Positions 2,261 to 62,899 of a stretch of DNA of 64,000 nucleotides are shown piece by piece (position 1 is the first letter of the stretch; the number at the start of each line of letters is the position of its first letter). Made by a program: the position numbers and the translations under genes. The DNA comes from Mesostigma viride (taxonomy: Eukaryota; Streptophyta; Mesostigmatophyceae; Mesostigmatales; Mesostigmataceae): assembly GCA_009746045.1 (NCBI GenBank), contig RPFO01000104.1, forward strand, positions 2,200,448 to 2,264,447. The letters run 5' to 3'. Below the pieces are notes generated by a model. The model was not told where the DNA came from. It searched no databases and saw nothing but the letters and a program-made list of their open reading frames with translations.

Positions 2261-2267
2261 ACGCGTG

Positions 2268-15681: not shown

Positions 15682-17655
15682 TAAGTAAGTAAGTAAGTAA
15701 GTACTTGCGTGTCATGCGCAAAGGCATGCCACGGAGTACTATGCTAATCTCATTAGAAAAATAATTACACAAAAGTTTAAACAAATATCGTCTGCATCAT
15801 CCCCCAACCGTGAAGCACTAGATGGGGATGTAATCATCATCCGAGCTGTCCTCTACTGTAATGGCAGACGAGGCGGTAGTGTAGCGGCTATCCTCAGGAC
15901 CAATAACCTCCACCTGCGGACTTCTACCCTGGCTAGCAACGGGCCGCGGGGCCCGTGGGGAGAAAACAGGAGCATACCCCTCGGGAAGGTGCTTATCGCA
16001 GATGGCAGCCCATTTCTCCTTGTCAATCATGCGGGCGCGGAGTACGGATAGTCCCAGAAGCGCTGCATCTTCAAGCAGTTGTGTCACATAGGTCCGGGTC
16101 GCGCCGCGCCGGTGCCCGGCGCGCGCAAGTTTGCCAGTGGGTTCAGTCGATGGGACAAGGGGACCCTGCCATAGGAGGAGGTGTCTACCTGGTTGGCCCG
16201 TCTTAAGCCCCCCGGCAGGGCCCACATCGGTATTCACCTGGTCTGTGCGGGCAAGATGGCCGGCAAAGAGGAGGCGGCGGTGTCGGATGGTATGGGTGAC
16301 AAGAGGGAGCTCGCAGTAGAGCTCGGCCCGGGTGCGGCGTTCTTAATTGGTAGCGGACGCCGAGGATATGACGGAGCATTCGAGTGACGGTGCCGTCAAG
16401 CTGCTGGCTCAGCGCCTGGTCCAGGGTCCACGCCTCGCAGCCATAAAGGCGGAAAAGATAACGGCAGGCTCGAGCTACCATCATTGGTCCGGATTCTCCC
16501 GATTTCTGGCCTGCGCTGGTTGTCTCTTTGATAAAGGAGGATGCTGAGGACAAGGGCCTTGAACAGAATGCGCTTGCGTCGCTCACTCAGGTAGCGACAG
16601 GTACAGAACCTGTCGAGGCGGCGGAGGGCCGCCCAGGCCTGGCCAATGCGGGTGTTGATGTCGTCGGCCGTGGAGGGAAGCCAGCTGCCAAGGAGCTTGA
16701 AGCGAGTCGCCGGGGGGACGGGGCTGCCGTCCAGCAAGAGGAGGGTGGGTGGGGCTATCCCAGCAGGGAAGCCGATGGCCATGACCTCCGTTTTCTTGCT
16801 GATCATAAGCCCCACCGCCCGCGCTTCCAGTGATAAGCTGTCTAGCCACAGTTGGGCTGACTCTGGGGTTTCCACGAGTGTCGTGTCATCAGCGTAGATC
16901 AGATCGCTCAGGCGGTAGGGTGGGTCAACCCCGCCGTAGCTGGCGTACTCCGTGATCTCGATCCCCGGCGGGCGCCCCTCCACCCGGGCGAAGCGGGCTT
17001 GTGCACGCCGCATAATATAGTCCACCATAATGATGAATAGATATGGGGAGAGCACACAGCCCTGCCACACCCCGGTGTGCAGGGGGAACGCCGGAGTGAC
17101 GCCGTCGGCGGTACGGACCTGGGCTTGGGACCCTTCATAGAACTGGCGGATGATCTCAACGATGTACGATGGGACACGGAACAGGTGAAGGACCACCCAC
17201 AGGGCGTCCCAGGTAACCGTATCGAATGCCTTGGTGTAATCCACGAAGATCAATAGCAATGGTGGCAAGAGGCCGGGGGCCAGGCGACCCACTTCCTCGA
17301 TCAGGCGGCGCGCGGTAATAGTGACCATAACACAATTGCGACCAACACGGAAGCCCATCTGGGACTCACCTAGGTGGGGATCGAGGCTGGCGCGCATGCG
17401 GTTCAGCAGGAGACGCATGAAGACTTTCAGCACGCAGCTTTGGAGGCATACGCTGCGGTAGTTGCCGGTATCCGCGGCGGACCCCTTGCCCTTGTAGAGC
17501 ATGACCCGTACAGCGGTCTTCCAATACGTCGGTGGGGGGAGGCCATCTCGTAGAATCCGGTTGCAAACACCCCGGAGGAAGGGCTCAAGCTCAGGCATCT
17601 TAACCACCTCCGGTGAAATATTGTCCACTCCCATGGCAGCATCATTGCGGACACG
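15682..17655 (-). pseudogene. LINE ORF2 (reverse transcriptase) with 3' UTR
   Basis: Minus-strand RT domain: MGVDNISPEVVK, NYRSVCLQSCVLK, GFRVGRN, FVDYTKAFDTVTWDALW, GVWQGCVLSPYLF, then the catalytic LIYADDTTLVE and the downstream LLGSWLPSTADDI block (about 17650 to 16540). After an 81-bp insertion the C-terminal part continues at 16440-15818 (QPGRHLLLWQGP, LGLSVLRARMIDKEKWA) in shifted frames. The 3' UTR ends in a (TTAC)n tail at about 15682-15700. The endonuclease part is missing (5' truncation). Two or more frameshifts make it inactive. Confidence 0.85.
16450..16530 (-). mobile_element. 81-bp short insertion with 7-bp TSD
   Basis: Interrupts the RT frame between LSILLY and GCEAWTLDQAL. 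The flanks carry ATAAAGG at 16443-16449 and 16531-16537, so removing 81 bp plus one repeat restores the RT reading. The body matches the repeats at 1-60 and 19015-19104. Ends are weakly similar when inverted (GGAAAAGATAAC and AAAGAGACAAC). Confidence 0.7.
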
Positions 17656-17725
17656 GGTTAAAAGCCATATTGCCCCTTCTCTGGGATATGTGAGCACTAC
17701 ATATACTCCCAGTCGGGGTAAAATT
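17656..17725 (+). mobile_element. LINE 3' end fragment in inverted orientation
   Basis: Plus-strand 3' end sequence (TTAAAAGCCATATTGCCCC, hairpin-like ACTCCCAGTCGGGGT) directly abuts the 5' side of the minus-strand RT. This could be a 5' inversion made during retrotransposition or a second insertion. Confidence 0.5.
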
Positions 17726-18350
17726 GGCTCTTTTTTAGAAAATTTAGCAAATTAGCAAATTAGCGGAGGCCGGGGGCCGAGATTAATTAAGAGGTACCTT
17801 GACATTAACCAAGTGGCATGGCTCTATCGAGATATATGTTTGGAGGCGAGTTTGTATTGGCGTTAATTTGTAGTATTGTACTCGTGACAACATGTCAAGG
17901 GTGACGGAAAGTACTGAAATCGCGGAAGTGTCGCGGAGACGTTTCTACTTTCTAGATCAATTGCGCATTCGACGGTTAAAAGGCAGAGGTGCGGTCGACT
18001 GGCAGTACTGTACGACGGTGTTGGACGGAATTTCCGGTCAGCGATGCGGTCTAAAGCTTTGCATCTCACGTTGTCGGATCTTAGCCCTTGCGTCGCGCTG
18101 TGCTGTGGCGAACTTATTCTCCGCCGTCAGATTGCACCGTCGATGAGCGTCGATGCTCGTCGATGAACCCAACGCAAGCCATGTGACGAAACGAAGTAAA
18201 AATTGGTGCGGCGGCAACTAAGGGCGAGTTTGGTAAGTTACGGAACTTGTATTGTAGCCCGGCGACTCCGCGTCAAGCAGTCCGCAGGTAGTCCGCCGGC
18301 GTTAATTTGTTAACTGGGAACAACCTACGGAGTTATGCTCCCAATTACAA
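17726..18350. other. Unassigned spacer
   Basis: No repeat family, TIR or convincing coding frame. A three-fold AAATTAGC run lies near 17742-17765 and a CGTCGATG triplet near 18137-18170. Confidence 0.3.
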
Positions 18351-23289: not shown

Positions 23290-26200
23290 ATGGGGCTCGC
23301 GGGCTTTATCTCAGCGGTAGTGCTCAACGGCAGCATTGCCGGTGTAGTTCTGATCATATATGCAATTTTGAGGAGATTGGACAGCCAATCACATGTCTAT
23401 TTTCCTAAGCAGAAAGAAGCTGGTGAAGACACAAAGCGGGCTCAAAAACAAAGCTTGCTAAAATGGGCGGAAGAGATGCTCAGGACGGATGAGGAAGAAG
23501 TAAGGAAAACCATGGGTTTGGACGGAGTGTCCTTTATCCGCATGTTCCGATTCGGGGTCGAGTTCTTCATATTCGCGACCATCATATGTATCGGCATCAT
23601 CATCCCCGTCAATGTCACGGACGAAGGTGTCGAGGTATGTTTCTCTGCTCGCGCCTCCCCACTCCAACTTCAGTCCACGGGTAAGCATCTGGCAGTGTTC
23701 CAGCCTGCACCGCCTCTTAACGACGCGGTGTTGTCGGACGAGTAGGAAATGGAAATCTTCTCGGGATGGCTGATTAATCATTTGTCTGTTTGTTTCTTTG
23801 TTTAAAGGATCAGAGATTGCCCCTCTTGCCTAGCTTGACTGTATCCACCTTTCCAGGCGTCTCAAGCCCGAATTCGATCACCTCAGGCACTAGGGCGCTA
23901 ACTAGCATGCTGCAGACACTCCGATTATCAATCCGCGTCTCATATTGGCCACGCGGTTGCAGTTTCATACATGTTCGATAGACTTTGCATTCACTCTGCT
24001 TCAATGACTCTTTCTTTTATCATTTTCTACGTATGTCAGATGTATCTTCTCACAAAGTCTAGGATAGATGGCGTGGCCTCGTTCTGCAGCAGCAGCCGTG
24101 GGTCATTCCCGAGATTGCTCCCATCCCGGCAGACCACCCATGATCAAGCACGGCTCCCTGGTGGCATCTATGCTTGCAGCACATTGCCCCGCCGGCACTT
24201 TGGTTGTGCCAGGCATGATTGCACGCCCATTCCTCGTAGCTTCCATGCCACTGCACAACTTGTATCCTGCCACCCACACATCGCACCCCTCCACCCCACG
24301 CACTCCCACGCTATCTCTCTCTATATTTATCTGCCTGCCTGCCTGCCCGCCCGCCCGCCCGCCCGCCCGCCCGCCCGCCCCGCCCCGCCCACCCCGCCCG
24401 CCCACCCCGCCCGCCAGCCAGCCAATACAGACGGCATCTCTCTTTTCCCAAACCACCACCAAGCTTGCTCCCTCACGCATTGATTCCCTCCCCCCACCCC
24501 CGCCCCCCTTCCCCCTTCCCTCTCCATCCCTCTCCGCCCGACCCTACCCTGTCTTTGCTTACATGCTCCCCTACCATTCCCATTCCGGTCCCACCCCCGC
24601 CCTTCCTTCCCCACACCCCCAGATCACCAACCGCGAGCTGACCACCCCGCCGCCACCACCCCTCTTCGTTGAGCCGGACAACTGCACATGCGCGTGCTTT
24701 GACGAGATCTGCCCTGCGCCCGAGTCCAACAGCACCAAAAACAGCACGGCTGAGGTCATCCTCCTCGACGACTTTGACAAGCTGTCCATGTCCAACATCC
24801 GCAAGGACTCCGAGCGCCTGTGGGCGCACTTCTTCTGCACGTGGCTGCTCACCCTGGCCGCCTTTTACCTCCTCCACAAGTACTACAAGCTGTACGTGGC
24901 CGACCGGCTCAAGGAGCGCTGCGACCCGAACGCGGCCGTTGAGTCTTATTCCATCTATGTCACCGACATGCCCAAGGAGATATTGGCCAAATCTGACGAC
25001 ACCGACGGCGAGCTGGCGGCCTATTTCAGGAGCCTCTACGGGAACAAGTACGTAGACTCGGTCGCGTGCCGGAACTACGCCGCGCTCGTGAAGCTCGTGG
25101 GCAAGTTGCGTGTTATGGAAGCGAAGCTCGAGAAGGCGCAGTGGGTGCTGGAGAACAAGAAGGAGACGCCGCAGCACAAGACCAAAGCGCTCGGGCTGTG
25201 CGGGCCCAAGGTGGACTCGATCCCGTACTGGGAGGAGGAGATCACGAAGATGAAGGGGAAGATCGCGGAGGAGTACGTGGTCGTTGTTGGGGAGAAGAAG
25301 AAGACGCCCGCCGGGTTCGTCACGTTCAGCGCGCGGGCGACCGCGTCGGTCGCCGCGCAGACGATCCACAACGCGGACGTGTACAGCTGGCGCACTGACG
25401 TCGCGCCGGAGCCGAGGGACGTGCACTGGCCCAACGTGCACTTGCGGTGGGTTGGGGGGAACCAGGTTTTCTGTGCGGGGGGGGGGGGGGGGGGGGTTGA
25501 AGGGATGAGGGCATGGCCGAACGTGCACTTGAGGTAGGTGGGCGGAAGGAAGGGGGGCTGGGGTAGGACAGGGGGCAGGGGCGTGCATGACAGGAGGGTG
25601 GAAGTGGGGAGGGAAAAAAAAGTTTATTTGACTGCGTGTAGGTGTGTTGCAGGCAGGGGCAGGGGCAGGGTTCGCGGTGGGGGAAGGGGAGAGACTGGAG
25701 GTGAGTGGTCCTTGTTGGCTCTCCTCTCATGGGTGAGTGGGAGGGGAAGAGCCAGAAGAGGGAGGGGGGGAAGGGGCGAGCGAGCGAGGGAGGGAGGGAG
25801 GGAGGGAGGGAGGGAGGGGGAGGGAGGGAGGAGGGAGGGAGGGAGGGAGGGAGGGAGGGAGGAGGGAGGGAGGGAGGGAGGGAGGGAGGGAGGGAGGGAG
25901 GGAGGGAGGGAGGGAGGGAGGAGGGAGGGAGGGAGGGAGGGAGGGAGGGAGGGAGGGAGGGAGGGAGGGAGGGAGGGAGGGAGGGAGGGACGGAGGGACG
26001 GAGGGACGGAGGGACGGAGGGACGGAGGGACGGAGGGACGGAGGGACGGAGGGACGGAGGGACGGAGGGACGGAGGGACGGAGGGACGGAGGGACAGAGG
26101 GACGGAGGGACGGAGGGACGGAGGCACGGAGGGACGGAGGCACGGAGGGGCGGAGAGACGGAGGGGCGGAGGCACGGAGGGGCGGAGAGACGGAGGGGTC

Positions 26201-29200
26201 GAGGGGCGCGGAGGGGCGGAGAAATGGAGGGAGGGAGGGAGGGAGGGAGGGAGGGAGGGAGGAGGGAGGGACGGAGGGACGGAGGGACGGAGGGACGGAG
26301 GGACGGAGGGACGGAGGGACGGAGGGACGGAGGGACGGAGGGACGGAGGGACGGAGGGACGGAGGGACGGAGGGACGGAGGGACGGAGGGACGGAGGGAC
26401 GGAGGGACGGAGGGACGGGGGACGGGGACGGACGGGGGGACGGGGACGGGGGGACGGGGACGGGGGGACGGGGGACGGGGGACGGGGGACGGGGGACGGG
26501 GGGACGGGGGGACGGGGGGACGGGGGGACGGGGAGACGGGGGGGCGGGGGGACGGGGGGACGGGGGGACGGAGTCAGGCAAGTCCAGCAAAGGCAATGAA
26601 AGAGACTGCACTCGGACAGGCGTAGACCCCCGTTGGTGTGCGGACAAGGATGCAGATCCACTCTCTCAGCGGTTCCTTTGTTTCTTTCTCGTGCTGTACC
26701 CCGTTGATCCCCCCCACCCCCTTCCCCTCCCCGTTTTTGCTCCCCATTGCCCACCCATGCCCTGTTATGCAGGTTCCAAGTTGCCCAAGTATATGTACAT
26801 TTCTTTCCCGCTCATTCCGTGATTGCCACCCCATGCTCATTCCCTGGCCGCCACCTCACACTTTTGTTCTGTGATCCTCGGATGATTCTCTCCTGGGCCG
26901 CCACATGGCAGGTACCTGGAGCGCACCACGCGCATGAAGATGGGCGCTGTCTTCCTGTTCTTGCTTGTCATTTTCTTCATGGTGCCCATCGCCTTCATCG
27001 CGGGGCTGAGCACGCTGGACAACCTGCGCAAGGCGATGCCCTTTATCGACACCATCCTCATCAAGTGCGTGCGCTTATATACTGTAGTAACCGCTACAGT
27101 GACCGCTGTACTGACCACTGGCATAGATAGGGGCTGAGCATGCTAAACAACCTGCGCAAGAAGATGCCGCTCATCGACACCATCCTCATCAAGTGCGCGC
27201 GCTAACCTCCTGCAGCAATACGGTCCGATATCTTTTGGCTCCCGACTGTGCTAATTTCCACAACGACCCCTGTTGATGCTGGCCCCTCAGTCATGTTGGT
27301 TCCCCTTCTCATTCATGCTTCTCCCTCATTGTAGCGGATTCTTCCCCCCACAGCGACGCCTGCGGGTGTCTGTTGCCCTGAGGCTTGCGCTGATCCTCTC
27401 ATTACTTTTGCTCGAACAATGTGTTGTCCACTTGTTCGTGCGGATCCTTACAGTGACACCGTCAAGGGCATCGTGGAGGGCATCCTCCCCACACTCGCAC
27501 TCCTCATATTCATGGCCTTCCTGCCGGCCATCTGTGTCGCCCTTGCCAAGGTAGACGGCTACCCCTCCCTCTCCACGATCGACCGCGCGGCCTTCTCCAA
27601 GCTCTACTGGTTTGTCGCTGTCAACATCTGGTTTGGCCAGATCGCGGGCGGCAGCATCCTTAACAAGATTGAGGAGATCACGGAGAACGTGAGCGACCTG
27701 CCCCGCATCCTGGGCCAGGCGATACCGACAACCGCGACCTTCTTCATCGACTTCACGCTGCTCAAGACGCTGGGCGTGCTGCCCATGGAGGTGCGGGGGG
27801 GGGGGGGGGGTTCGACATAGCTTTGATACTAGCATCGGTTAATTGCATGGATTAATCAGCCCTTCATGCTGCTCAGGATGCTGGGCGCTGGGTGTGCTCC
27901 CTTTGGAGGTGGGTTGGGGCGTTGATTTCGCTCGTTAGGCGTCACTAGTGTCACTCACGCAATGGGATCAGTCTCATCAAGTAATGGGATTAGTTAACCG
28001 CTACTAGTATCAGTCACGCAAGGGGATTAGCCGGCCCTGCACGACGCTCAGGACGCTCGGTGCGCGGGGCGTGGAGCTTGGTCGGGCCGCGGATGATGGA
28101 GCCACGAGCAAGGAAGGGGGTATAGTGTTTTCGTGGGTTTCGTGTCCTGCCACTATCGTGGGTGTGAGTGCGGGGGAGGGGCGCAATGGGCATAATCACA
28201 AGTATGTAGGGTTACTGTACTCATCAACGTGATTATTTGTTTCTATGTTATTATTACTGGCACTAAGTAATTATAATTAGCAGGTGGGAATATCCACACC
28301 TGATATGTCTAGGCTTCCCGAAGGCGGCCCCCCAGAGGGACCAGATTGCCTAGTTCTGGGCTGACTACTTGCCCCCTGTGCCTGTGTTACTACATGGGTG
28401 CCTGTGTTTGTGCGTGCGCGTGAATAACAAGCCCTCCTCATCGGCCTCGCCATCATCCGTCACGCACATGTCACTGTTCCGACGTTACTCCGTGGATGTG
28501 GGGGTCATGTGTGTGCGTGGGCTCGCTTATTGGGCGAACCTCATCGGCCCTGCCATCACATCTGGGATCAAGCTCACTTCACGGGTTCAGCTCACTCAGT
28601 TCACCGTATGTATATATATATATATATATTTTTCTTCAGGGTTCTTCTTCTTTTCCGGATTTTCCTTGTGTTGCATGCCCCTCTCACCTCTGTAACTTAT
28701 CATTCTCAATGAATATATATATATATTAAAAATTATAAGTGCTTACATCAGAGTGAAGGCACCCAATTAAACATAAACAAAGCCAACGCTAACAAGAGAT
28801 ACCACGACAAAATAACTGCAGCCGGCATGGGACACTCGATCCACACCTCGGAATGAAGCAAAACAGCAGGTATATATACACCTGGTCCTATTCTACTGTG
28901 TGCAATGTGCGGCTCTTCCCTGGCTTATCTCTTCGCGGTCGCAGGCACTCCTGATCGGCCCCGTCATCGTTTCCAAGATCAAGCTGAAGTTCCTGGCCAA
29001 GACAGAAAAGGAGATTGCCGCCGTCTGGGCACCCACGCCCTTTGCCTACGTGAAACACGCATCCAACACAATGCTCTTCTTCCTGCTGGTGAGGGACGCG
29101 GTCCCTTGGCACTGTTGTGTAATGCTGGCATTTTGGTGTAGGATGCAATTAGGCGCTCTGTCATGTCGTGTAAAGGACGTGTCCAACAACAATGCTCCTC

Positions 29201-40636: not shown

Positions 40637-41022
40637 TTGATCAGGCACTCCGCAAAGGTGAAAACCATTTGCGTTCAGTACCGGGCCGCGGAAAACGCGG
40701 AAAAACGCGATCTGCAAATGAATCCGACCGGAATCGAACTGGGGACCTCTCGCACCAATTTTGCTGACTATAGGACGGACGTCTCCGGTTACCATGGCAT
40801 CGCCAACTTACACCTACAGTCATCCGCAAAAGTTCTCCTGTCCGGGGAGTGATGCAAGCCTTTCGGATTTGGTACTAGATAAATCACTCGAGATCTGTGT
40901 GTAGGAGTACTACACACGTGTCTGCACGCGAGACTTGTTCAGTCTCGCACCGTGAGACGGGCTGAACACGGCTGAATCCTTCTTTTTAGTAGAAGGGGGC
41001 GTAGCCGGTACTATCGAAATCA
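40637..41022 (-). mobile_element. Full-length tRNA-like SINE, 10-bp TSD
   Basis: 386 bp, from TGATTTCGATAGTACCGG (5' end, at 41022) to GAGTGCCTGATCAA (3' end, at 40637). Flanked by GTCCTAATAT at 40627-40636 and 41023-41032. It contains the B-box-like GTTCGATTCC and the 3' hairpin described for the dimer at 350-1008. Confidence 0.85.
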
Positions 41023-41140
41023 GTCCTAATATGAGGGGATTCATAAGTGTTTGCTCAATTTCATAAATTTTACTCAATTTTTCCACATGTGATTAAATCC
41101 TTATATTTGTCAATAAAGCAGGGGTCATCCAGCCTTCAGA

Positions 41141-42450
41141 CCATGAAAATAGACCACCCACAAAAATTGGGCTCATTCTGAGCTCAAATGGTGACATGTG
41201 ACAGCATACATGTGCAGTTTTTCGTCATTTTCCCCCTTTTCTTACATGAAACAAATATGAATAGTGAACAAATGAACTCATATCAGGCTGGATTCTTGCA
41301 GGCAGCATCTAGACCATGAAAATAGACCACCCACAAAAATTGGGCTCATTCTGAGCTCAAATGGTGACATTTGACCGCATACATGTGCAGTTTTTCGTCA
41401 TTTTCCCCCTTTTCTTACATGAAACAAATATGAATAGTGAACAAATGAACTCATATCAGGCTGGGTTCTTGCAGGCAGCATCTAGACCATGAAAATAGAC
41501 CACCCACAAAAATTGGGCTCATTCTGAGCTCAAATGGTGACATTTTTGTATAGCTATGCTGATCTTCCCCCCCATGACAGGCTCCCCCTTCGCTGGGCAT
41601 AGCTTGAAGATCATGGGGATGCAAGTGCCCTGGTGCACCTAGAGCAAGGGTCCTTTACATCCCCACCCTTGCAGGAAGTAGCTTAGGATGTATGATAGGC
41701 CATATGCCCCCTCTCAAGGGCTATGTGCTACATATACTCCCAACGGAGTTATGTTACAATTCAATTCAATTCAATGGTGACATGTGACAGCATACATGTG
41801 CAGTTTTTCGTCATTTTCCCCCTTTTCTTACATGAAACAAATATGAACAGTGAACAAATGAACTCATATCAGGCTGGGTTCTTGCAGGCAGCATCTAGAC
41901 CATGAAAATAGACCACCCACAAAAATTGGGCTCATTCTGAGCTCAAATGGTGACATTTGACCGCATACATGTGCAGTTTTTCGTCATTTTCCCCCTTTTC
42001 TTACATGAAACAAATATGAATAGTGAACAAATGAACTCATATCAGGCTGGATTCTTGCAGGCAGCATCTAGACCATGAAAATAGACCACCCACAAAAATT
42101 GGGCTCATTCTGAGCTCAAATGGTGACATGTGACAGCATACATGTGCAGTTTTTCGTCATTTTCCCCCTTTTCTTACATGAAACAAATATGAACAGTGAA
42201 CAAATGAACTCATATCAGGCTGGGTTCTTGCAGGCAGCATCTAGACCATGAAAATAGACCACCCACAAAAATTGGGCTCATTCTGAGCTCAAATGGTGAC
42301 ATGTGACAGCATACATGTGCAGTTTTTCGTCATTTTCTCGGTTATCTTGGTTATGAAACAAATATGAATATTGAACAAATGAACTCAGATCAGGCTGGAA
42401 ACTTGTAAGCAGCATGTAGACCATCAAAATAGACTGTTTACAGCTCAAAA
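41141..42450 (+). repeat. Left 173-bp tandem array (7 units)
   Basis: CCATGAAAATAGACCACCCA starts units at 41141, 41314, 41487, 41900, 42073 and 42246, with a diverged one at 42421. The 413-bp gap is one period plus a 229-bp LINE end and its 11-bp TSD. Confidence 0.95.
41544..41772 (+). mobile_element. 229-bp LINE 3' end with 11-bp TSD
   Basis: 5'-truncated end (starts TTTTGTATAGCTATG, hairpin at 41746-41759, CAATT tail) flanked by AATGGTGACAT at 41533-41543 and 41773-41783. It lies within one 173-bp unit. Confidence 0.9.
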
Positions 42451-42607
42451 GGTGACAAATGAAAGGAAAACAATGCAGTTTGATGCCATTGCCACTGTTC
42501 TCTTGAATAAAACATTTTTGTGCGACCAAATGAAATTCATGGGCATTCATTGACAATCCTCGAGGTTGAATCGTGCAGTCTGAATTTCGTACAACGGTAG
42601 TATGAAG

Positions 42608-43586
42608 TTCAGACTGGACGGGCAGTCTCGGGTCTTCGATGAATGAATTCCAGTGAATGCAAGATGAATTGCCGAGACCGACCTGTTAGCAAGGAAATTC
42701 GTCCTTTTCGTATGTTCAGACTGGACGGGCAGTCTCGGGGCTTCGATGAGTGAATTCCAGTGAATGCAAGATGAATTGCCGAGACCGACCTGTTAGCAAG
42801 GAAATTCAAGTCCTTTTCGTATGTTCAGACTGGACGGGCAGTCTCGGGGCTTCGATGAGTGAATTCCAGTGAATGCAAGATGAATTGCCGAGACCGACCT
42901 GTTAGCAAGGAAATTCAAGTCCTTTTCGTATGTTCAGACTGGACGGGCAGTCTCGGGGCTTCGATGAGTGAATTCCAGTGAATGCAAGATGAATTGCCGA
43001 GACCGACCTGTTAGCAAGGAAATTCAAGTCCTTTTCGTATGTTCAGACTGGACGGGCAGTCTCGGGGCTTCGATGAGTGAATTCCAGTGAATGCAAGATG
43101 AATTGCCGAGACCGACCTGTTAGCAAGGAAATTCAAGTCCTTTTCGTATGTTCAGACTGGACGGGCAGTCTCGGGGCTTCGATGAGTGAATTCCAGTGAA
43201 TGCAAGATGAATTGCCGAGACCGACCTGTTAGCAAGGAAATTCAAGTCCTTTTCGTATGTTCAGACTGGACGGGCAGTCTCGGGGCTTCGATGAGTGAAT
43301 TCCAGTGAATGCAAGATGAATTGCCGAGACCGACCTGTTAGCAAGGAAATTCAAGTCCTTTTCGTATGTTCAGACTGGACGGGCAGTCTCGGGGCTTCGA
43401 TGAGTGAATTCCAGTGAATGCAAGATGAATTGCCGAGACCGACCTGTTAGCAAGGAAATTCAAGTCCTTTTCGTATGTTCAGACTGGACGGGCAGTCTCG
43501 GGGCTTCGATGAATGAATTCCAGTGAATGCAAGATGAATTGCCGAGACCGACCTGTTAGCAAGGAAATTCAAGTCCTTTTCGTATG
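42608..43586 (+). repeat. 109-bp tandem array (9 units)
   Basis: TTCAGACTGGACGGGCAGTC starts units at 42608, 42715, 42824 and then every 109 bp to 43478. Inner units are virtually identical. Each unit contains GTCTCGG and, about 50 bp on, CCGAGAC, so each can fold. Confidence 0.97.
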
Positions 43587-43641
43587 TGCGCGAAACATGA
43601 GGGGTGGGAAAACGGAATAAGCACAGAAAACGGAATCAGCG

Positions 43642-43932
43642 ATGGCGGAGAAGACGGCGATGGCACTTTTCAAATCGCATGTCATGGACGTGCACGAGCC
43701 GGAATGGTTGGTGGGGACCCCGGTATGCAAGATATTTTCAGGCCCAAACTCAGGGGAGAAGCGGTATCATGCCCATGTGACGGCGTTTAATAAGGAGCAC
43801 AACATGGTCCATGTGCTCTACACAGACGGGGACGATGAAATAGTAGGGTTAGATGAGGTGCGAGCTGCGCTTTGCGCATGCCCAGGTGTAGAGTTACCCA
43901 ATCTGCCACCCGACTCGACTGCGCGAGGTTAG
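43642..43932 (+). CDS. Small Tudor-like domain ORF inside the foldback element
   Basis: A 96-residue intact frame from an ATG in good context (GCGATGGCG). Residues about 24-75 read VGTPVCKIFSG, then RYHAHVTAFNKEHNMVHVLY and TDGDDEIVGLDEVRAAL. The pattern G..V.K.F....Y.A.V...D.E....V.Y.DGD.E resembles small plant/algal Tudor or Agenet-type domains that read methylated histones. The family match is by eye only. It sits between the 109-bp and 66-bp arrays and may be a captured host fragment or an element-encoded protein. No promoter is evident. Confidence 0.5.
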   Translation: MAEKTAMALFKSHVMDVHEPEWLVGTPVCKIFSGPNSGEKRYHAHVTAFNKEHNMVHVLYTDGDDEIVGLDEVRAALCACPGVELPNLPPDSTARG

Positions 43933-44139
43933 GCGGAGATAGTAGAGTGCGTTCGGATCGAAGCAGGTCGCACACCGGGGCACGGCTAGCAAGCAAGCGA
44001 AGGCGACCCCGCGCCACAAGCGCCGCCCTCCCCACATAATTGATGACTCAGACTCAGACTAGCCTTATTGATGTGAGTTTAAATTTTTCAGTTTTAGATC
44101 CCAGCGTGCAACATACAGGGATGAAAAGCACTTTAACAT

Positions 44140-44215
44140 GTATTATTGTGCTCTGCGACTCCCCAATAGGAGCGCGTGTTTTATCAATGAATTATTTAAT
44201 TAATAATTTTTTCAG
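44140..44215 (+). mobile_element. Decayed LINE 3' end
   Basis: GTGCTCTGCGACTCCCCAAT, then AGGAGCGCGTG and an AATTATTTAATTAAT tail is a diverged version of the GCTCC...CCCCAACGGGAGC subfamily end. Confidence 0.5.
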
Positions 44216-44327
44216 TTGGAAATGACGTCAAAACTGGGCTGAGTTTAAATGTTACTTATATATATATACTGTCCTGAGCCAGTAGACATCGCGCCTTACG
44301 CGGATCCGCGCTTTTTACGTTTCAGTT

Positions 44328-44530
44328 CAGACAACTGGTCTCAGACATGCACGGGGCTCGGCGTGCCATGCTTCCACGTTTGTTGTCTCTTTTCAGACAA
44401 CTGGTCTCAGACATGCACGGGGCTCGGCGTGCCATGCTGCCACGTTTGTTGTCTCTTTTCAGACAACTGGTCTCAGACATGCACGGGGCTCAGCGTGCCA
44501 ATGCTTCAGTCCACGTTTGTTGTCTCTTTT
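44328..44530 (+). repeat. 66-bp tandem repeat (3 units)
   Basis: CAGACAACTGGTCTCAGACA begins units at 44328, 44394 and 44460. Confidence 0.95.
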
Positions 44531-44539
44531 CATATACTG

Positions 44540-46200
44540 TCACATGTCACCATTTGAGCTCAGATCGAATGAGCCCAATTTTTGTAGGTGGTCTAGTATT
44601 ATGGTTTAAATGTTGCTTGCAAGAATCCAGCTTGATATGAGTTCATTTGGTCATGATTCCTATTTGTTTCATGTAAGAAACCGGTGCAAATGGCGTAAAA
44701 CTGCATATTCATACTGTCACATGTCACCATTTGAGCTCATAATGAGCCCAATTTTTGTAGGTGGTGTAGTATTATGGTTTAAATGTAGCTTGCAAGAATC
44801 CAGCTGGATATGAGTTCATTGGTTCATGATTCCTATTTGTTTCATGTAAGAAACCGGTGCAAATGACAAAAGGTTGCATATTTATACTGTCACATGTCAC
44901 CATTTGAGCTCATAATGAGCCCAATTTTTGTAGGTGGTCTAGTATTATGGTTTAAATGTAGCTTGCAAGAATCCAGCTCGATATGAGCTCATTTGGTCAT
45001 GATTCCTATTTATTTCGTGTAAGAAAACGATGAAAATGGCGTAAAACTGCATATTTATACTGTCACATGTCACCATTTGAGCTCATAATGAGCCCAATTT
45101 TTGTAGGTGGTGTAGTATTATGGTTTAAATGTAGCTTGCAAGAATCCAGCTGGATATGAGTTCATTGGTTCATGATTCCTATTTGTTTCATGTAAGAAAC
45201 CGGTACAAATGACAAAAGGTTGCATATTTATACAAAAGGTTGCATATTTATACTGTCACATGTCACCATTTGAGCTCATAATGAGCCCAATTTTTGTAGG
45301 TGGTGTAGTATTATGGTTTAAATGTTGCTTGCAAGAATCCTGGCAGCTCGATATGAGTTCATTTGGTCATGATTCCTATTTGTTTCATGTAAGAAACCGG
45401 TGCAAATGACGAAAAGCTGCATATTTACACTGTCACATGTCACCATTTGAGCTCAGAATGAGCCCAATTTTTGTGGGTGGTCTATTTTCATGGTCTAGAT
45501 GCTGCTTGCAAGAATCCAGCCTGAAATGAGTTCATTTGTTCACTATTCATATTTGTTTCATGTCAGAAAAGGGGGAAAATGACGAAAAACTGCACATGTA
45601 TGCTGTCACATGTCACCATTTGAGCTCATAATGAGCCCAATTTTTGTGGGTGGTCTATTTTCATGGTATAAATGCTGCCTGCAAGAATCCAGCCTGATAT
45701 GAGTTCATTTGTTCACTATTCATATTTGTTTCATGTCAGAAAAGGGGGAAAATGACGAAAAACTGCACATGTATGCTGTCACATGTCACCATTTGAGCTC
45801 AGAATGAGCCCAATTTTTGTGGGTGGTCTATTTTCATGGTCTAGATGCTGCCTGCAAGAATCCAGCCTGAAATGAGTTCATTTGTCCACTATTCATATTT
45901 GTTTCATGTAAGAAAAGGGGGAAAATGACGAAAAACTGCACATGTATGCTGTCACATGTCACCATTTGAGCTCAGAATGAGCCCAATTTTTGTGGGTGGT
46001 CTATTTTCATGGTCTAGATGCTGCCTGCAAGAATCCAGCCTGAAATGAGTTCATTTGTCCACTATTCATATTTGTTTCATGTAAGTAAAGGGGGGAAATG
46101 ACGAAAAACTGCACATGTATGCTGTCACATGTCACCATTTGAGCTCAGAATGAGCCCAATTTTCGTGGGTGGTCTGTTTTCATGGTCTACATGCTGCCTG
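44540..46200 (-). repeat. Right 173-bp tandem array (10 units), inverted relative to the left array
   Basis: ATGG anchor words occur at 44601, 44774, 44947, 45120, 45313, 45490, 45663, 45836, 46009 and 46182. The spacing is 173 bp except one 20-bp internal duplication (TTTATACAAAAGGTTGCATA near 45230) and one 177-bp step. Outer units are closer to the left array than inner ones. Confidence 0.95.
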
Positions 46201-46941
46201 CAACAGTCCAGCTTTAGGTACCCTCAGATCTGAAAGATTTTTTTTTTACTCATTTGAAGACTTGTGAAATTGAGCAAACACCTATGAATCCCCTCTATGT
46301 CCAACTTGTGTTCTAGTGTAAATTCAAGTATTGTGCTATTAATGTGACGAATTCTGGCATGATTGGGCCACATATGTGCTGGCAAGGGCTTCATAAGTTT
46401 GAAAATAATGCACCAAAACGGTGTTTTGGCTCATGTATGCCAGAATTATAGCACATAGTTTGGTCCTACATTGCATACTTAAGGGCGGTTTTTGTCTTTG
46501 GATGTAAATTAATAAGCATAACCATCTCCTGCTGAATTGGACTACATTTACTACTTGTGTGTGGCTGCTATGCCTCCATATGCCTGGAAAACATCGTTTT
46601 TTGCCCTTTTCCACGTCACGGTTTGATGCTAAAAATAGGTCAGTTGGCCCCCCAAGTTATGTGATGTGAACAGGGTCCTAGGGGGACCTTACGTCCAGGA
46701 AGGCACCCCGATCTGACTATATGCGTGGGAGATATGACCCCATGTAACAAAAAAGGCCATTTTTAGGTGATGTGTCCACATCTTGTGGTTGATCATCAGG
46801 TCCCCGCCCCTCCAGTACACCTTGGGCTTCTGGGGGTCCTGCTTATGGCGGAGGTATTCCGGCCACCGGTCGCGTCGCTGCTGTTGCTGAGCGGGGGTGA
46901 GGTCGTCATCCAGCGTCCAGGTGAGGTCGTGCAACCGATAC

Positions 46942-47187: not shown

Positions 47188-47442
47188 GAGCCACGCTTTA
47201 GCCTTTGTATAGCTATGCTGATCTTCCCCCCCCATGACAGGCTCCCCCTTCGCTGGGCATAGCTTGAAGATCATGGGGATGCACGTGCCCTGGTGCACCT
47301 AGAGCAAGGGTCCTTTACATACCCACCCTTGCAGGAAGTAGCTTAGGATGTATGATAGGCCATATGCCCCGGCCCTCTCAAGGGCTATGTGCTACATATA
47401 CTCCCAACGGAGTTATGTTACAATTCAATTCAATTCAATTCA
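47188..47442 (+). mobile_element. 255-bp LINE 3' end with 11-bp TSD
   Basis: Flanked by ATGAAATTACA at 47177-47187 and 47443-47453. It has the family hairpin and a CAATT tail, and carries a 4-base GGCC insertion near 47370. Confidence 0.85.
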
Positions 47443-47963: not shown

Positions 47964-49602
47964 TAATTAATTAATTAATAGACACGTGACTGCGTCACGT
48001 GAGCATAAGTCCTTGAGCAGTGGGAGGGGAACATGGGATGCGGAATGGATGGTATAAGCTATCTAGGTCCTAGTTACAGGGGTGTGGGCACCGCGGCCCG
48101 AATCCCTATGAATGCCATACTTGGTCACGTACGCGGAGCCCCCACAGGCTTGGGGGTGGTCTCCTTCATCACGACTTGCCATCTGTCCTTGCGCACCATC
48201 TGCCTCCTTATTACAGACAAACCAGGAGGCTGCCCGGCCCCTGCCCGGGGGTGAGCCCGTCACGTCTAGTGTAGCACATGTCCATGCCGAGTCGATCTAT
48301 CACGAAATGTCCACGGGTGCATGGCGGCCCTGCCGCGCGCGGCCGGGGGCACGCCAGGTTAGGACATATCGCCCAGGCTGGGCGGGCTTGGTGCCAGCTA
48401 GTCTATCTGAGGTATCTACCTGATCTGTGCGGGCCAGGTGCCCGGCTAGACCCAGGCGTCTGTGCCTAATAATGTGGGAAACATAGGGCAAATCAGCGTA
48501 CAAATTCTCATTACTACTGATGTGCAAACCGAAGGGGATGTTAAGGGCCTTGCGCAGCATCTTGGTGACGGCGCCGTCGAGTCGTTGCTCCAGCGCCTGC
48601 GTCAGTGCCCACGTCTCGGCGCCGTAGGTCAGGATCGTCAGAATGACGACCTTGAAGAGGTCACGCTTGACGATCCGGGGTAGGGCGGGGTTGCTCCACC
48701 AGCGGCGGTGGTCATGGAGGTGCGCCCACGCCATGCCGATCCGTGTCGTCATGTCGTCCTCGCAGTCGGGAAGCCAACTGCCGAGCAGCTTGAAGCGGCC
48801 TGAAGGAGGGCCGGTAGTTGACCTCGGCATCGTCTAAGAGGCGGAGTGTGGTTGGGGGCCCTGCCATGCCGAGGGCCAGGGCCTCCGTTTTGGGGCTGAT
48901 TTCTAGACCATGCAACCGCCCGAGCCTCGAGCGCCAGGCAGTCCAGCCAAAGTTGGGCAGACTCCGGCTTCTCGATGAGCGTGATGTCGTCGGCATAAAT
49001 GAGGTCAGCTAGTAAATTCTGCTGGTTAGTCGGCCCCCCTTCTCCAGGCTCGTTCGTGATCGCTAGGCCAGGGGCACGGCCTGCAATGCTAGCAAAGCGA
49101 GCACGTGCCTGGCGCATAACATAATCCACTACAATAATAAACAGGTACGGCGACAGGACGCAACCCTGCCAGGCGCCGGTCTGCAGTGGGCATGGCGGGG
49201 TAAAGCGGTGTTGAGTGCGCACCGAAGTGGTCGACCCCTAGCTCATCATACAGCGTGCGGATGACGGTAATCAGGAGAGTGGGGACGCGAGCGCGAGCAA
49301 GTACAGCCCATAGAGCGTCCCAGAGGACAGAATCAAAAGCCTTGATGAAGTCGACGAAGATCAGGATGGCGAGAAACTCACCAGGTTGCAGGAGAGCGAT
49401 TTCGTCGAAGAGGCGACGCGCGACGAAGATGGCCATGACGGTGTTGCGCCCAGGACGGAAGCCCATTTGACTTTCCCCAAGGTGACAGTCGAGAGCAGAA
49501 CGAAGGCGGTTGAGGATCATGCGCATGAACAACTTGAGTGCGGCGCTCTGGATGCAGACTCCTCTGTAGTTGGCAGGCCGGTCGTCAGGGGAACCTTTGT
49601 TT
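47964..49602 (-). pseudogene. 5'-truncated LINE ORF2 (RT) with 14-bp TSD
   Basis: Flanked by TTCCTGCGCTACAT at 47950-47963 and 49603-49616. On the minus strand: CIQSAALKLFMRMILNRLR, GFRPGRNTVMA, FVDFIKAFDSVLWDALWAVL, GAWQGCVLSPYLF, LIYADDITLIEKPESAQLWL, LLGSWLPDCEDD, ILTYGAETWALTQAL, QPGRYVLTW. At least two frameshifts (near 49220 and 48880). The TTAA tail is at 47964-47977. It interrupts ORF1 of the surrounding LINE. Confidence 0.9.
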
Positions 49603-51349
49603 TTCCTGCGCTACATGGCCGCCCGCAAACTTGTGATCTATGCACCAGGCAGGCCAGGCGACACCATCCCAGTAGAAGACATTGCCGACATGGATCGAGG
49701 AGCCACCGCTTCGACTTTCTGTATTCTTGAGCCACGCGCAGGCCCCCAGCCTCCGGGCACTCATTGCCGCCTTAGATACCAAGATGGCAGCCGAGCACGG
49801 CCCCGCCAACACTCCTAGCGCTTCCCCGGAAGCGGACCTGCAACAGCTCAACCAGAAAGTCGCGGACATGGCTGCCCAGCTAGGCGACCTGTCAACTGCA
49901 TCTCTGCGCCAGGACACCGCCAAGAGCTACGCACCAGCATGGCTGAGGTGAAGGCAGCCCTGGCCACCTCGCCCCAGCAAGCCGCCCCATCGCCTCCCAT
50001 GGCTAAGTCGGCACGTACCATGGTGAAGCAGGCGGACATTGCTAACATGATGGCGGACGCTGCACGGCGGGCCGGGGGCAGCGGCCCACAAGACCGCAGT
50101 TGAGGACGACCAACGATCACGCAGTATTGTGGTATGTTGCTTCGAGGCCGTGCCGGTCCCCAGGAAACGGACCTCATGCTTGCACAACGCCTGCACCGGA
50201 GCCTCATAGATAGTGGGCCGGCTGCAGTTGGGCAACGAACGCATCCGCATTCAGTCGGCAGCATGGATGGCAGGCCAACCTGGCCCCATCTGGGTGACCT
50301 TCACGGCGGTGTGGCCAGCAAGGTGAAAGTCCTCAGTGCAGGCCTGCAAGATCCTGGGCGGGCGAGGAGCGCCCAGCATCGACGTACGATCTACTCTCCC
50401 CAGCCCAGCTCGTCATCAAGAACGGCAGCCTTGCTGGGCAGCGAGGCAGCGGTCCAGGCCAGGCACGACCGCATTCGCACCTGCGTCCGCGCCTTGTCAA
50501 CGACACCCCCGTTCTCTTCATTAACGGGAAGCGCACGGACTGTGCAAGCTCCGAACAAGCGGCACAACTGCCACGCTCCCAGCCAGCCCCAGCTGCATCG
50601 TCGTCGTCAACGCACGTCCCCGGTATGGAGGGCGCCTGGTAAGGGCACACCCTCGCGGCCTCGCGGTACAATAGGCTTTGGGCACAGCCTTTATTAATAA
50701 ACAAGCCCCTTTCCATCCCCATGTCGCACCGTGCGAGCATTATCAGGATGCAAGGTCGCCAGGCACGCCACGGTCAACCCTTCCGCCAATTTACCAGCCT
50801 CGATCACACGCCTCCTGGGCCGCCTTGCATGAGCGGGATGAGGCTCAGTCAACACGCCAGCGACCCCAGACAGGACGGAGACGACGCATATCCGCCCTGA
50901 TGAAAGAAAGACTCCATGCGCTGAAAAGCATGAACCCCAATCGCCACCCTCCTCCCCCCCCACCCCCACCTCCAGCACTACCCTTCTCCACCCCCACCTC
51001 CACCCCCCGGCAGCCCCCCGCTAATTAATATAGGGCAACAGCCCATTCTTGGTATTGCAAGCTTTAATGTGCGCCCCCTCCCTGCAGATCCTTCTACGAG
51101 CGGCGGCACCCCAGCACGCCAACGCGTCGATGAGCTGATCGCCTTGTACGTGCGCCGACAACAAGATCGATCGCCCGGTCCTCTTCGACAACAAGCCATG
51201 CCCTAGCTCTTGTATAGCCATGATGATCTTCCCCCCCATGACAGGCTCCCCCTTAGCTGGGCATAGCTTGATAGATCATGGGGGTGCAGGTGCCCTGGCG
51301 CACCTAGAGCAAGTGTCGCTTACATTCCCACCCTTGCAGGAAGTAGCCC

Positions 51350-59700: not shown

Positions 59701-62197
59701 AGGCAGCTCCACAAAAAAAAGGTTATGAGAGCGGCGACAAGAGACAAAGGCTGGGCTGCCCACAGATAAATATTTTCACAAGAAGTTGCGATAAAAAAAA
59801 CCGAATGGCTGCGAGCGCGATGCACTTGTGAGTTCTGCAAAACGACAAGTGCAACGTGGGAAGTGGCAAGATGCAAAAGCCACAAGCTGCAAACACACGA
59901 GTGGCGAGATATGAAATGGACTCGGCATCCTCCATGCATTCCAAACCGCTCCCTCCCTTCTCTCTCTCCCTCTCTCCCTCCCTCCCTCCCTCCCTCCCTC
60001 CCTCCCTCCCTCCTCCCTCCCTCTCCCTCCCTCCCTCCCTCCCTCCCCTCCCTCCCTCCCTCGCTCCTCCCTCCCTCCCTCCCTCCCTCCCTCCCTCCCT
60101 CCCTCCCTCCCTCCTCCCTCCCTCCCTCCCTCCCTCCCTCCCTCCCTCCCTCCCTCCCTCCCTCCCTCCCTCCCTCCCTCCCTCCCTCCCTCCCTCCCTC
60201 CCTCCCTCCCTCCCTCCCTCCCTCCCTCCCTCCCTCCCTCCCTCCCTTGCGTTTCCGTCCCTTCCCTCGCCTCCCTGCCGCTCTCCCCTTTCCCCTCGTC
60301 CCTAACCTCAACGAAAATTGCAGGGACTAAAGAACCATCCGTGCCTGTGCGTGCAGTCGGGTGATGTACCCAATCCATGGCCACATCCAGACAGGCGCTG
60401 ACATCATGATTCGTTCATACCAGGCAGAAGACACCCCATCTCATCAGACGCTGGCGTCGTGACTGGATGCGGTGAACCCAAAGTGGAACGAAGAGTGTTT
60501 TCTTACAAGGCTTTTTTCTCTCCGGAACCCCCTTAGAAGAAACAATACAGGCTGGTGGACCAAGTACCCATGTCCAACCAAGGCTGGCTGACCAAGTACC
60601 CATGTCACAATAGGGCTGCTCGACCCATACCCGCCAACAATGCCGCAAAGCAAAATGAGCACCAAGCACAAAACACGTTCACAGCAAGTGGCAAGTTTTA
60701 CACTAGATGTTTAGAATACATACAGGTTTACAATACATACAAGTGGCAAATAGTTAGATAGATACTGCTATCTCCTTGACAGGGCTGATTACTCGATTCC
60801 CATCTCCTGATCAAGAAACAAACAAGCACTGCGAAGCAGACACTTGGGTCGTAAGTACATTCACGCCTTCGGGTCGACCCGATTAATCCGGCGAACCCAA
60901 CTCAATGCGGGAATGACTGTAGTGGATTTTGCATCCTTATTTGGTTTTCGGCAACATGTCCCCAATATTCCTGTTTCAAGGCTCGTTGACCTATCCCCAC
61001 CTCCCCCACCTCATCGCGGAGGAGATTAGCACAAGGAACCAGTCATTAGTACCCTAAACGGTAGGGTTTCTTTATATGGATCCACCCTTCCTCTCCCCCC
61101 CAGCCGTAGCTCGACATAAACGAGCACCAGGAGCCTGACACATGTACCATACTTGGGGGGGTTGGTTGACCCCCCCCCACCCCAACCCACCCCCCCCCAC
61201 ACACAACCCCCACCCCCACCACACACCTGATCACAAAGCAAATAAGCAAGAGGAACCTGACACTCAAGTACTGTACTTGGTGGTTTGGGTTTTGGTTGAC
61301 CCCCCCCCCCCGAAACACACCTGATCACAAAGCAAATAAGAACAAGGAACCAGACACACAACCCCACCCCCGACACACACCTGATCACAAAGCAAATAAG
61401 AACAAGGAACCAGACACACAACCCCACCCCACCACACACCTGATCACAAAGCAAATAAGAACAAGGAACCAGACACACAACCCCACCCCGACACACACCT
61501 GACCACAAAGCAAATAAGAACAAGGAACCAGACACACAACCCCACCCCCGACACACACCTGATCACAAAGCAAATAAGAACAAGGAACCAGACACACAAC
61601 CCCACCCCCACCACACACCTGATCACAAAGCAAACAAGAACAAGGAACCAGACACACAACCCCACCCCCGACACACACCTGATCACAAAGCAAATAAGAA
61701 CAAGGAACCAGACACACAACCCCACCCCCGACACACACCTGATCACAAAGCAAATAAGAACAAGGAACCAGACACACAACCCACCCCACCACACACCTGA
61801 TCACAAAGCAAATAAGAACAAGGAACCAGACACACAACCCCACCCCCGACACACACCTGATCACAAAGCAAATAAGAACAAGGAACCAGACACACAACCC
61901 CACCCCACCACACACCTGATCACAAAGCAAATAAGAACAAGGAACCAGACACACAACCCCACCCCCACCACACACCTGATCACAAAGCAAATAAGAACAA
62001 GGAACCAGACACACAACCCCACCCCCACCACACACCTGATCACAAAGCAAATAAGAACAAGGAACCAGACACACAACCCCACCCCCGACACACACCTGAT
62101 CACAAAGCAAATAAGAACAAGGAACCAGACGCCGTCGACGCCCAGCTTGTCGATCAGTCGCCCCGAGAAGAACATGGCAGGGATCTCGGCCGCACAT
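53755..62197 (-). CDS. MFS_1-like transporter, 3' half, in eight or more small exons
   Basis: Minus-strand exons with meshing phases and GT-AG borders: 62197-62131, 60450-60421, 60326-60307, 59477-59386, 59089-59070 (weakest acceptor), 58215-58180, 55652-55568, 54041-53755; about 211 codons. They spell CAAEIPAMFFSGRLIDKLGV, RLMRWGVFCL, SLQFSLR, AGYYSLLTTPWAVLPVEVLH, GVTFGCAYTA, QVAPPQLANTVQ, SIFTSIYFGYGNGTGILIAG and ATMFRGLAIAVLVTLGAYF, followed by a cytosolic tail. This is the order of the C-terminal half of the MFS_1-like (LacY/nucleoside-permease-like) family: EIP..FFSG.L...G, NPW..LP.E.LHG.TFG, APP.L..T.Q, YFG.G.G.G.L..G. The substrate is unknown. Upstream exons (membrane segments 1-6) were not found. 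A frame at 62344-62290 (MERIVLFLVLLKAATSP) is a doubtful candidate. The 58.2-kb acceptor is CAGCAG, so one Gln may be optional. The last exon is shortened by a retroelement. Confidence 0.65.
54173..54910 (+). repeat. Small tandem duplications in the last MFS intron
   Basis: A 46-bp duplication (TTATATGCATCAGACAAGCA...) at 54173-54264, and three ~57-bp units starting with GATAAAGAAGAGATCAT at about 54770-54910. Confidence 0.85.
55125..55182 (+). mobile_element. Short LINE 3' end
   Basis: GTGCTCCGTGACTCCCCAAC, then GGGAGCACGAG and an AATGAATTAATG tail. It is the GCTCC...GGGAGC hairpin subfamily. Confidence 0.6.
55945..56155 (+). repeat. (TGATGCC)n and (AAT)n microsatellites
   Basis: About nine TGATGCC/TGATGAC heptamers at 55948-56018, and AAT/ATT-rich sequence at 56093-56155, both inside the 55.7-58.2-kb region. 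Confidence 0.85.
56200..58179. other. MFS intron with unassigned repeats
   Basis: (CAGC)n at 56665-56712, a diverged direct repeat (TTGGGAG...AAGTACGCGAC) at 56758 and 57308, a 25-bp tandem duplication (AGTATACTTGACTAATTTAG) at 57230-57285, a C run at 57787-57805, and (GTACT)n at 58055-58083. I see no gene here. Confidence 0.5.
59955..60246 (-). repeat. (GGGA)n microsatellite in an MFS intron
   Basis: TCCC units on the plus strand with CTCC and CTCT interruptions. The long frames over it are repeat artefacts. Confidence 0.95.
60858..60919. mobile_element. Diverged Tc1/mariner-like MITE
   Basis: 62 bp between TA dinucleotides. Left end CATTCACGCCTTCGGGTC, right end (inverted) CAGTCATTCCCGCATTGAG. 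It is related to the larger MITE at 62900-63076. Confidence 0.5.
61210..62130 (-). repeat. 59-60-bp minisatellite (15 units) at an MFS splice donor
   Basis: GATCACAAAGCAAATAAGAA recurs from 61229 to 62098 every 59-60 bp (the first interval is longer). On the gene strand each unit reads GTCTGGTTCCTTGTTCTTAT, then TTGCTTTGTGATCAG, i.e. a pyrimidine-rich run ending in CAG followed by GTGTGT. The array starts exactly at the donor of the exon ending at 62131. Open frames across it (for example VPCSYLLCDQ repeats) follow from the 60-base period. Confidence 0.9.
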
Positions 62198-62899
62198 CTG
62201 GCAGGGGGGCGGGGGACATCATTGGCGGGCGGGACGGAAGACAGGCAAGGGGGCGGTGGCGGGGCTGTGAGTTTGGGGGGGTTGAGCACCTGGGAGAGGT
62301 TGCCGCCTTGAGAAGCACGAGAAAGAGGACAATCCTCTCCATGCTTTCCACTATACCAAGTACATGGTAGTACTAGTGGTAGTATTAGTATACTACCAGG
62401 TACCAGCTAGTGCCATATTAGTATATCTTGATAGTAGTATTAGTGTATCAAGGGTTCCACCTTATTGGCATTACGTGAATCATGTGCTGGGTTAAGGAAT
62501 CAATCAGACAACTAGCGCATATACTACGATATGAGAGCTTCATGGCAGTAGAAATATGCCCAGTTCCACAAATCGAATACCCTGTTGCTGAGTAAGGCTG
62601 TTTGAGAGGGACAGGATGGGCCAGGGCAACGAGTTACGAGGGGCAGGGGGGAAATGGGCGGGTGGGGGGAGGAGTGTGGGGCAGGGGGGCTGCGGTGGGA
62701 CATGGAAATGTGGAGCCTATAAACACTGTTGCAGCCAACAGGCTGGAAAAAAGACATAATAATAATAATAACAACAATAATAATAATAATACCGGTGTGC
62801 CCTCGATAAGCCTTACCACAAAGACCCCATAAAGGCCCCACAAAGCCAAACTGGACCAGGCTGCCAGCGACTCAAAGTCAAGAAGAGGGAGCAATGGTA
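62198..62899. other. Region upstream of the first recognised MFS exon
   Basis: Contains GTAGTA-type short repeats (62370-62440) and (AAT)n at 62757-62792. Missing 5' exons may lie here, but none can be recognised. Confidence 0.3.

Follow-up and report, generated by a model that had tools for sequence, protein, structure and literature searches.

A foldback element of Mesostigma viride that is very likely derived from a DUF7869-encoding DNA transposon

The DNA analyzed here is a stretch of 64,000 nucleotides from Mesostigma viride (assembly GCA_009746045.1, contig RPFO01000104.1, positions 2,200,448 to 2,264,447), hereafter termed the window. At positions 41033–46295 it contains a mobile element with inverted ends of about 34 bp, two facing arrays of a 173-bp repeat, a 109-bp array, a Tudor-like reading frame and a 66-bp array. 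Very likely, it is a non-autonomous foldback form, amplified recently, of a DNA transposon with terminal inverted repeats (TIRs) whose DUF7869 protein carries a Tudor-like domain at its C-terminus. It is best read as a gutted copy of such an element, because it has the same ends and the same 173-bp array as a DUF7869 element, retains remnants of the DUF7869 gene, and has TIRs that also lie near most DUF7869 genes of the clade of that element, among the matches listed; the right-hand array would have been copied in inverted orientation beside its left end.

Copies in the genome and a coding relative with shared ends

A search of the source genome (440 Mb in 2243 contigs) with a 31-bp TIR pattern, at up to three mismatches, yielded 149 + 144 = 293 matches, and the reversed control had none. 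The TIR pair is thus not unique in the assembly, and the proposal of the first-pass annotation that this is a genuine mobile foldback-type element present in many copies is borne out. For the target site duplications (TSDs), 20 copies were taken at 10 kb each; the 10 with both ends inside were used and the other 10 left out, and together with the window element and the coding element described below they form a set of 12. Identical 3-bp flanks, with no common motif, were found in all 12 elements (TAT, CAG, AGA, CCG, CTT, TTT, CAC, GTT, AAA, AAT, GCT and TGA). Furthermore, the copies L023, L024, L026 and L029 have empty sister sites (L033, L032, L036 and L037, respectively), each with a single copy of the 3 bp; three of the four are exact, and the L023/L033 pair is off by one TSD base. 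TIRs, a TSD of fixed length and empty sites, by which a TIR DNA transposon is recognized, are therefore all present, and we infer that the element moves by cut-and-paste chemistry.

Eleven derivative copies, the window element included, were read from end to end and range from 3456 to 7463 bp. Their left 173-bp array varies from 0.7 to 8.1 units, the lowest value being that of L029, the right one from 6.4 to 11.3 units and the 109-bp array from 6 to 11 units, but every copy has the same 3.1 units of the 66-bp repeat. Long inverted arms of tandem repeats around a middle domain, the defining structure of foldback elements, are found in the window element and its copies. The first-pass annotation had also suggested that the element may spread its own satellite seeds. 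When the genome was searched with the 173-bp unit, 40 of 134 candidate regions were scored and at least 259 matches found; no long separate array was conspicuous among the matches listed.

A coding relative that shares these ends was overlooked in the first-pass annotation and is located on contig C1813. Two loci of this contig, L045 and L042, make up a complete element of 6100 bp with TIRs of about 35 bp and the TSD TGA, in which one end is followed by a 120-bp array, the DUF7869 gene, a 173-bp array on this side only, and the other end. L042 contains a 923-amino-acid (aa) frame that matches the Pfam family DUF7869 at E 3e-14 and has the Tudor-like segment as its C-terminus; of the two long open reading frames (ORFs) of this element that were scanned, only one has a recognized domain, which is DUF7869. 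The first 51 bp of the window element are identical to the left end of the C1813 element, and the window element and L042 also have in common the right end and the 173-bp array, with blocks of up to 98% identity. Having its ends in common with a coding element, the window element bears the mark of a non-autonomous one.

The same association is seen elsewhere in the genome, in neighborhood counts that rest on the first 100 of the 293 TIR matches, all perfect. On the contigs carrying these TIRs, and among the matches listed, 10 of 12 DUF7869 hits of the same clade have a correctly oriented upstream TIR within 15 kb, and five of these 10 also have a downstream TIR, at an overall spacing of about 10–15 kb; on the same contigs, neither an upstream nor a downstream TIR accompanies any of the 57 other-clade hits included in the count.

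Architecture of the window element and its Tudor-like frame

The window element is flanked by the TSD TAT at 41030–41032 and 46296–46298 (read from the sequence, no strand assigned). Its left TIR (41033–41066, +) was defined by comparison of its end with the C1813 element and by the genome TIR search, and its right TIR (46262–46295, –) by end comparison; the right end is 94% identical to the left over about 34 bp, as measured against the C1813 left end, in agreement with the TIRs and 3-bp TSDs annotated earlier. Tandem Repeats Finder placed the left 173-bp array, inverted relative to the right one, at 41138–41545 (–) and 41773–42434 (–). This facing array stands as first described, with about six units over both parts instead of the seven counted then, and is divided by a 228-bp insert (41545–41772, +). 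The insert resembles a short interspersed element (SINE), with an (ATTCA)n tail and a target duplication of about 11 bp within the left array, and is an unrelated passenger. Other copies of this SINE-like repeat lie in the window at 47204–47436 (97%), 9641–9873 (96%) and 1132–1363 (91%), and further ones are more diverged.

By the same program, the right 173-bp array (44533–46214, +) holds 9.6 units where ten had been reported; DNA alignment showed it to be common to DUF7869 elements. The nine 109-bp units (9.0; 42607–43587, +) and three 66-bp units (3.1; 44326–44532, +) were confirmed, and the former array is about 66% like the 120-bp array located 5' in the C1813 element. Between these two arrays are found a 42-bp scrap of the DUF7869 coding region (43584–43625, +; 93% to L042:1617-1658) and a segment homologous to the gene's 3' end (43639–44090, +; 82.7% to L042:3324-3772). 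Within the latter lies the 96-codon frame (43642–43932, +), whose conceptual translation matches a portion of the DUF7869 C-terminus by translated search. No Rfam family was found in 40800–46600.

The Tudor likeness of this frame was examined by profile and by structure. It matches the Pfam family PTM_DIR17_Tudor at E 4e-5 and 23.7 bits, under the curated cut-off of 27.2 bits, and a sequence search of the PDB returned a single irrelevant hit at E 0.86. A single-sequence AlphaFold model has a mean predicted local distance difference test (pLDDT) score of 63.7. With this low-confidence model, Foldseek retrieved the Tudor domains of SMN, SPF30, PHF1 and PHF20 at a probability of about 1 and a target template-modeling (TM) score of about 0.6–0.7, but at E values of only about 0.03–0.1. 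No Foldseek match reached E<=0.001; ranks 1–3 are other proteins, and in rows 4–50 Tudor domains are mixed with ribosomal and other proteins. Given the model and the profile match, the frame may fairly be called Tudor-like, and histone binding by it is putative.

The first-pass annotation had regarded the frame as intact and as a cargo gene spread by the element for its own use. Frame and Tudor likeness were upheld, but the frame is shorter at both ends than its counterpart in the coding relative: its initial Met lies within the DUF7869 protein, and it terminates after 96 codons, about 42 codons before the end of the relative, whose extra 42 codons lead to an acidic tail missing from the window frame. 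The cargo interpretation was not upheld, since elements with the same ends encode a DUF7869 protein whose C-terminal part the frame matches. The same correspondence bears on whether the element captured a host chromatin-reader gene by transduplication, independent of any transposase. The best Pfam match of the frame is a Tudor domain of the PTM/DIR17 family, which we take to be named after host proteins, as such a capture might produce; but in elements with the same ends, as in a second DUF7869 family, the DUF7869 frame has the Tudor-like domain as its C-terminus, and the DNA beyond the window frame is homologous to the same DUF7869 gene. Capture of a host gene is therefore largely refuted and was rejected as a highly improbable explanation, since the long protein of the elements themselves ends in this domain.

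A translated genome search with the 96-aa frame, in which 150 of 703 candidates were scored, separated three clades and remoter relatives. At least 50 copies, the window included, are 100% identical across the 96 residues, and at least five more full-length copies reach 99%; of the 55 full-length copies at 99% identity or more, 53 have no internal stop. Among the matches listed, a second clade of 26 rows has 83% identity and lies in longer frames of 227–923 aa. A third, sister derivative clade of 20 rows has 76% identity over residues 43–96 and a stop in all 20, and 11 of its 13 rows on contigs carrying the listed TIRs are within 10 kb of a perfect TIR copy. Remoter rows, at 36%–45% identity, belong to frames that reach about 1500 aa. 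The first-pass annotation had made its element-plus-gene proposal depend on whether other copies keep the frame, and the answer is divided: the recent burst keeps it, and the sister clade carries a stop throughout.

Comparison of the Tudor segment between the window and L042 gave a nonsynonymous divergence (dN) of 0.094 and a synonymous divergence (dS) of 0.371, with 16 aa differences against 26.7 expected. Because none of 5000 simulations gave so few differences, the segment was constrained somewhere between the window and L042. Within the burst, the comparison covered a 738-bp core of the window element and 29 other copies. Inside the frame there are three substitutions, two nonsense and one missense, in 8414 aligned bases, and outside it 15 substitutions in 11679 aligned bases, falling on six sites. 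The raw counts differ at a Fisher p of 0.03, but shared changes are counted repeatedly in them; the density of changed sites is about equal, at 3/291 in the frame and 6/447 in the non-coding flank. The ratio of nonsynonymous to synonymous change among copies, to which the first-pass annotation had looked for a decision, is thus uninformative, and the frame gives no sign of conservation within the burst. Because the copies are too young, this comparison cannot decide on function.

These data bear on the possibility that the derivative makes a functional 96-aa peptide, either a trans-acting repressor, for which truncated P-element transposases offer an analogy, or a chromatin-targeting helper, kept for aiding spread. 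The 53 uninterrupted copies among 55, the constraint on the Tudor segment between the clades and the lower raw substitution count in the frame would all agree with it. But the site densities are alike in copies this young and two of the three changes in the frame are nonsense; the sister clade, with its stop in all 20 rows listed, still multiplied beside the same ends; and the window frame is devoid of the acidic tail of the coding relative. We consider a functional peptide quite unlikely. Judged from these sequence comparisons, the 96-aa frame is most likely an inherited remnant of the DUF7869 protein, not a gene kept for function.

Several observations weigh against derivation of the window element from a DUF7869 transposon. 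No TIR lies near two of the 12 same-clade DUF7869 hits among the matches listed, the closest coding relative is only 83% identical in the Tudor part, and no long frame with the Tudor sequence of the window itself occurs among the scored hits. Moreover, judged by frame length among the matches listed, 19 of the 26 rows of the coding clade have a separate 227-aa Tudor frame. L042 has DUF7869 and Tudor in one frame (972–3740), and in L043, where a G-run is one base shorter, the Tudor frame is separate (1573–2253). This difference may reflect an error of assembly, decay or a genuine arrangement with two products.

DUF7869 as a candidate transposase

Pfam lists DUF7869 (PF25273) as a family named without function. 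In the source genome 150 of 275 candidates were scored, with the scored rows above the curated cut-off, and none was found in 14 control genomes; the long ORFs exceeding this cut-off are here carried by TIR transposons. The name DUF7869 was not found in the literature searched. In viral contigs, one search for relatives gave 0 matches and another gave 30 stretches, of which 0 were confirmed. A motif pattern had three matches there: in L048, read in all frames, the motif is off the long unrelated frame, and the other two were dismissed from a short translated stretch only. A further DUF7869 relative, at L041:6231-9980 (G000:C1107), has a 22-residue unit repeated dozens of times in an open frame of 2726 aa.

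A second, divergent family is represented by L044, a 1469-aa frame that is 35% identical to the L042 protein and 47% in the core, with the stretches DKID, DGGSEN and GHTHxDxD invariant and the Tudor-like segment kept. The ends of this family were found by copy boundaries, an earlier comparison of about 2 kb per side having given none. Its right end is at L049 788-791, where ten other copies stop aligning together, and a 24-bp end sequence has 34 + 33 genome matches and 0 in the control. Ten paired copies of 9.9–15.8 kb, with the ends GAGTTGTTGCG...CAACCACTC, each span a DUF7869 hit by coordinates, and their 3-bp flanks match in eight of the ten. The 11 coding elements with both ends read thus measure 6–16 kb, and the two divergent DUF7869 families have GAG...CTC inverted ends and 3-bp duplications in common. 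Paired GAGGTGTTGC... ends also occur 2.6–4.2 kb apart (G000; C1835:268677-272912, C1921:41089-45236 and C1567:94451-97008), and these pairs are probable short derivatives of the second family.

Because these ends and duplications recur in two divergent families, DUF7869 is probably the transposase of a DNA-transposon lineage with a Tudor-like tail. It is also the best candidate available, because no other credible transposase domain was found in the ORFs scanned (Pfam, E<=1), only DUF7869 and a weak Tudor match. The invariance of DKID, DGGSEN and GHTHxDxD is only suggestive as a sign of the catalytic acids of a DD(E/D) enzyme. In the mechanism that we propose, DUF7869 would be a DD(E/D)-type transposase that is made by coding copies, recognizes the GAG...CTC ends and moves the gutted copies in trans, and its Tudor-like tail would probably tether the transposase complex to a histone mark.

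Other results pull in the opposite direction. The scan just mentioned produced no established transposase domain to support the assignment. Against the PDB, the DUF7869 core profile had no credible match, the sole hit being G-protein-signaling modulator 2 at a best E of 1.3; with the full two-sequence alignment 44 hits were returned, with the matched columns all in the acidic or low-complexity tail. In the second family, two further copies (C1591 and C1635) cease aligning earlier, near position 501, and two of the ten paired copies (C1690 and C1502) have no matching 3-bp flanks.

Alternatively, DUF7869 may be an accessory protein of elements that belong to a known superfamily, such as EnSpm, Harbinger, Zator or Academ, with the transposase located elsewhere or unrecognized. 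Mutator-like elements (MULEs), P and hAT elements have TSDs of about 7–10 bp, unlike the 3 bp found here. Academ elements have TSDs of 3–4 bp, and EnSpm/CACTA elements have long proteins and subterminal repeats. TSDs of 3 bp are also made by EnSpm/CACTA and PIF/Harbinger (PHIS) elements (PMC12730594) and by Zator (PMC10045372), and the brown alga Ectocarpus carries giant EnSpm and KDZ elements (PMC12477816), which would fit such an assignment. But EnSpm/CACTA (CMC) elements end in CAC...GTG (PMC12730594), whereas both DUF7869 families end in GAG...CTC, and the Pfam scan of the ORFs of these elements detected neither a CMC-type nor the EnSpm transposase family. PIF/Harbinger elements choose TNA or ANT targets (PMC12477816), which one TSD each fits among the 12, and no Harbinger-type DDE domain appeared in the same scan. 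The absence of another credible transposase domain among the scanned ORFs, and the C1813 element with DUF7869 as its only recognized domain, also speak against an accessory role, which we regard as rather unlikely. By ends, TSDs and Pfam domains we could not place the DUF7869 lineage in a known superfamily. We tentatively propose, at somewhat less than even confidence, that an undescribed superfamily of eukaryotic DNA transposons has DUF7869 proteins as its transposases, together with GAG...CTC ends, motif-free 3-bp TSDs, a C-terminal Tudor-type reader of its own and foldback derivatives.

Surroundings of the element and known systems

Elsewhere in the window, reverse transcriptase frames (Pfam RVT_1) that are LINE-like by appearance (LINE, long interspersed element) lie at 16396–17751 (–) and 49089–49610 (–). 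Pieces of a channel gene with Pfam PHM7_cyt and RSN1_7TM, probably a host gene and presumably a channel of the OSCA/TMEM63 type, are found at 24908–27820 (+). At 61026–62218, open frames in tandem on both strands arise from a short repeat unit.

In its overall form, the window element resembles Tetris, Galileo and Tm1, which have long inverted arms of tandem repeats that vary in copy number (PMC4079207, PMC3688188, PMC3169594). Tetris and Tm1-HH copies are likewise non-autonomous (PMC4079207, PMC3169594, PMC3688188). In Galileo, some of the repeats provide additional binding sites for the transposase (PMC3688188), and the 173-bp units probably add binding sites to the window element in the same way. 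The differences are equally clear: Galileo belongs to the P superfamily, Tm1 is of the Mutator type and Tetris has TSDs of 8–10 bp, whereas the window element has 3-bp TSDs and a DUF7869 relative; that relative on C1813, in contrast to the foldback systems, has a one-sided 173-bp array. Foldback structure has been suggested to have arisen independently in different lineages (PMC4079207). For the Tudor-like tail, the closest likeness is Gypsy-10_Ec32 of Ectocarpus, whose mobile-element protein has a C-terminal Tudor domain and which, to the knowledge of the authors of that 2025 study, is the first reported transposable element with one (PMC12477816). Gypsy-10_Ec32 is a long terminal repeat (LTR) retrotransposon, whereas the lineage described here consists of TIR DNA transposons that encode DUF7869; the terms foldback and DUF do not occur in the text of that study (PMC12477816). 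In the literature searched, no Tudor-bearing mobile element besides this Gypsy retrotransposon was found, and in the available portions of reports on foldback, Tudor-bearing, 3-bp-TSD, Academ/Zator and brown-algal elements no published counterpart of the window element was recognized.

In summary, this analysis provides a mobile context for DUF7869, a domain of unknown function abundant in the source genome, and shows how a foldback element with satellite-like arrays can derive from a coding element that persists beside it in the genome. No DNA transposon with a Tudor-type reader may have been described before this lineage, and it allows one to ask whether such elements are directed to chromatin marks, a behavior attributed to chromodomain retrotransposons.

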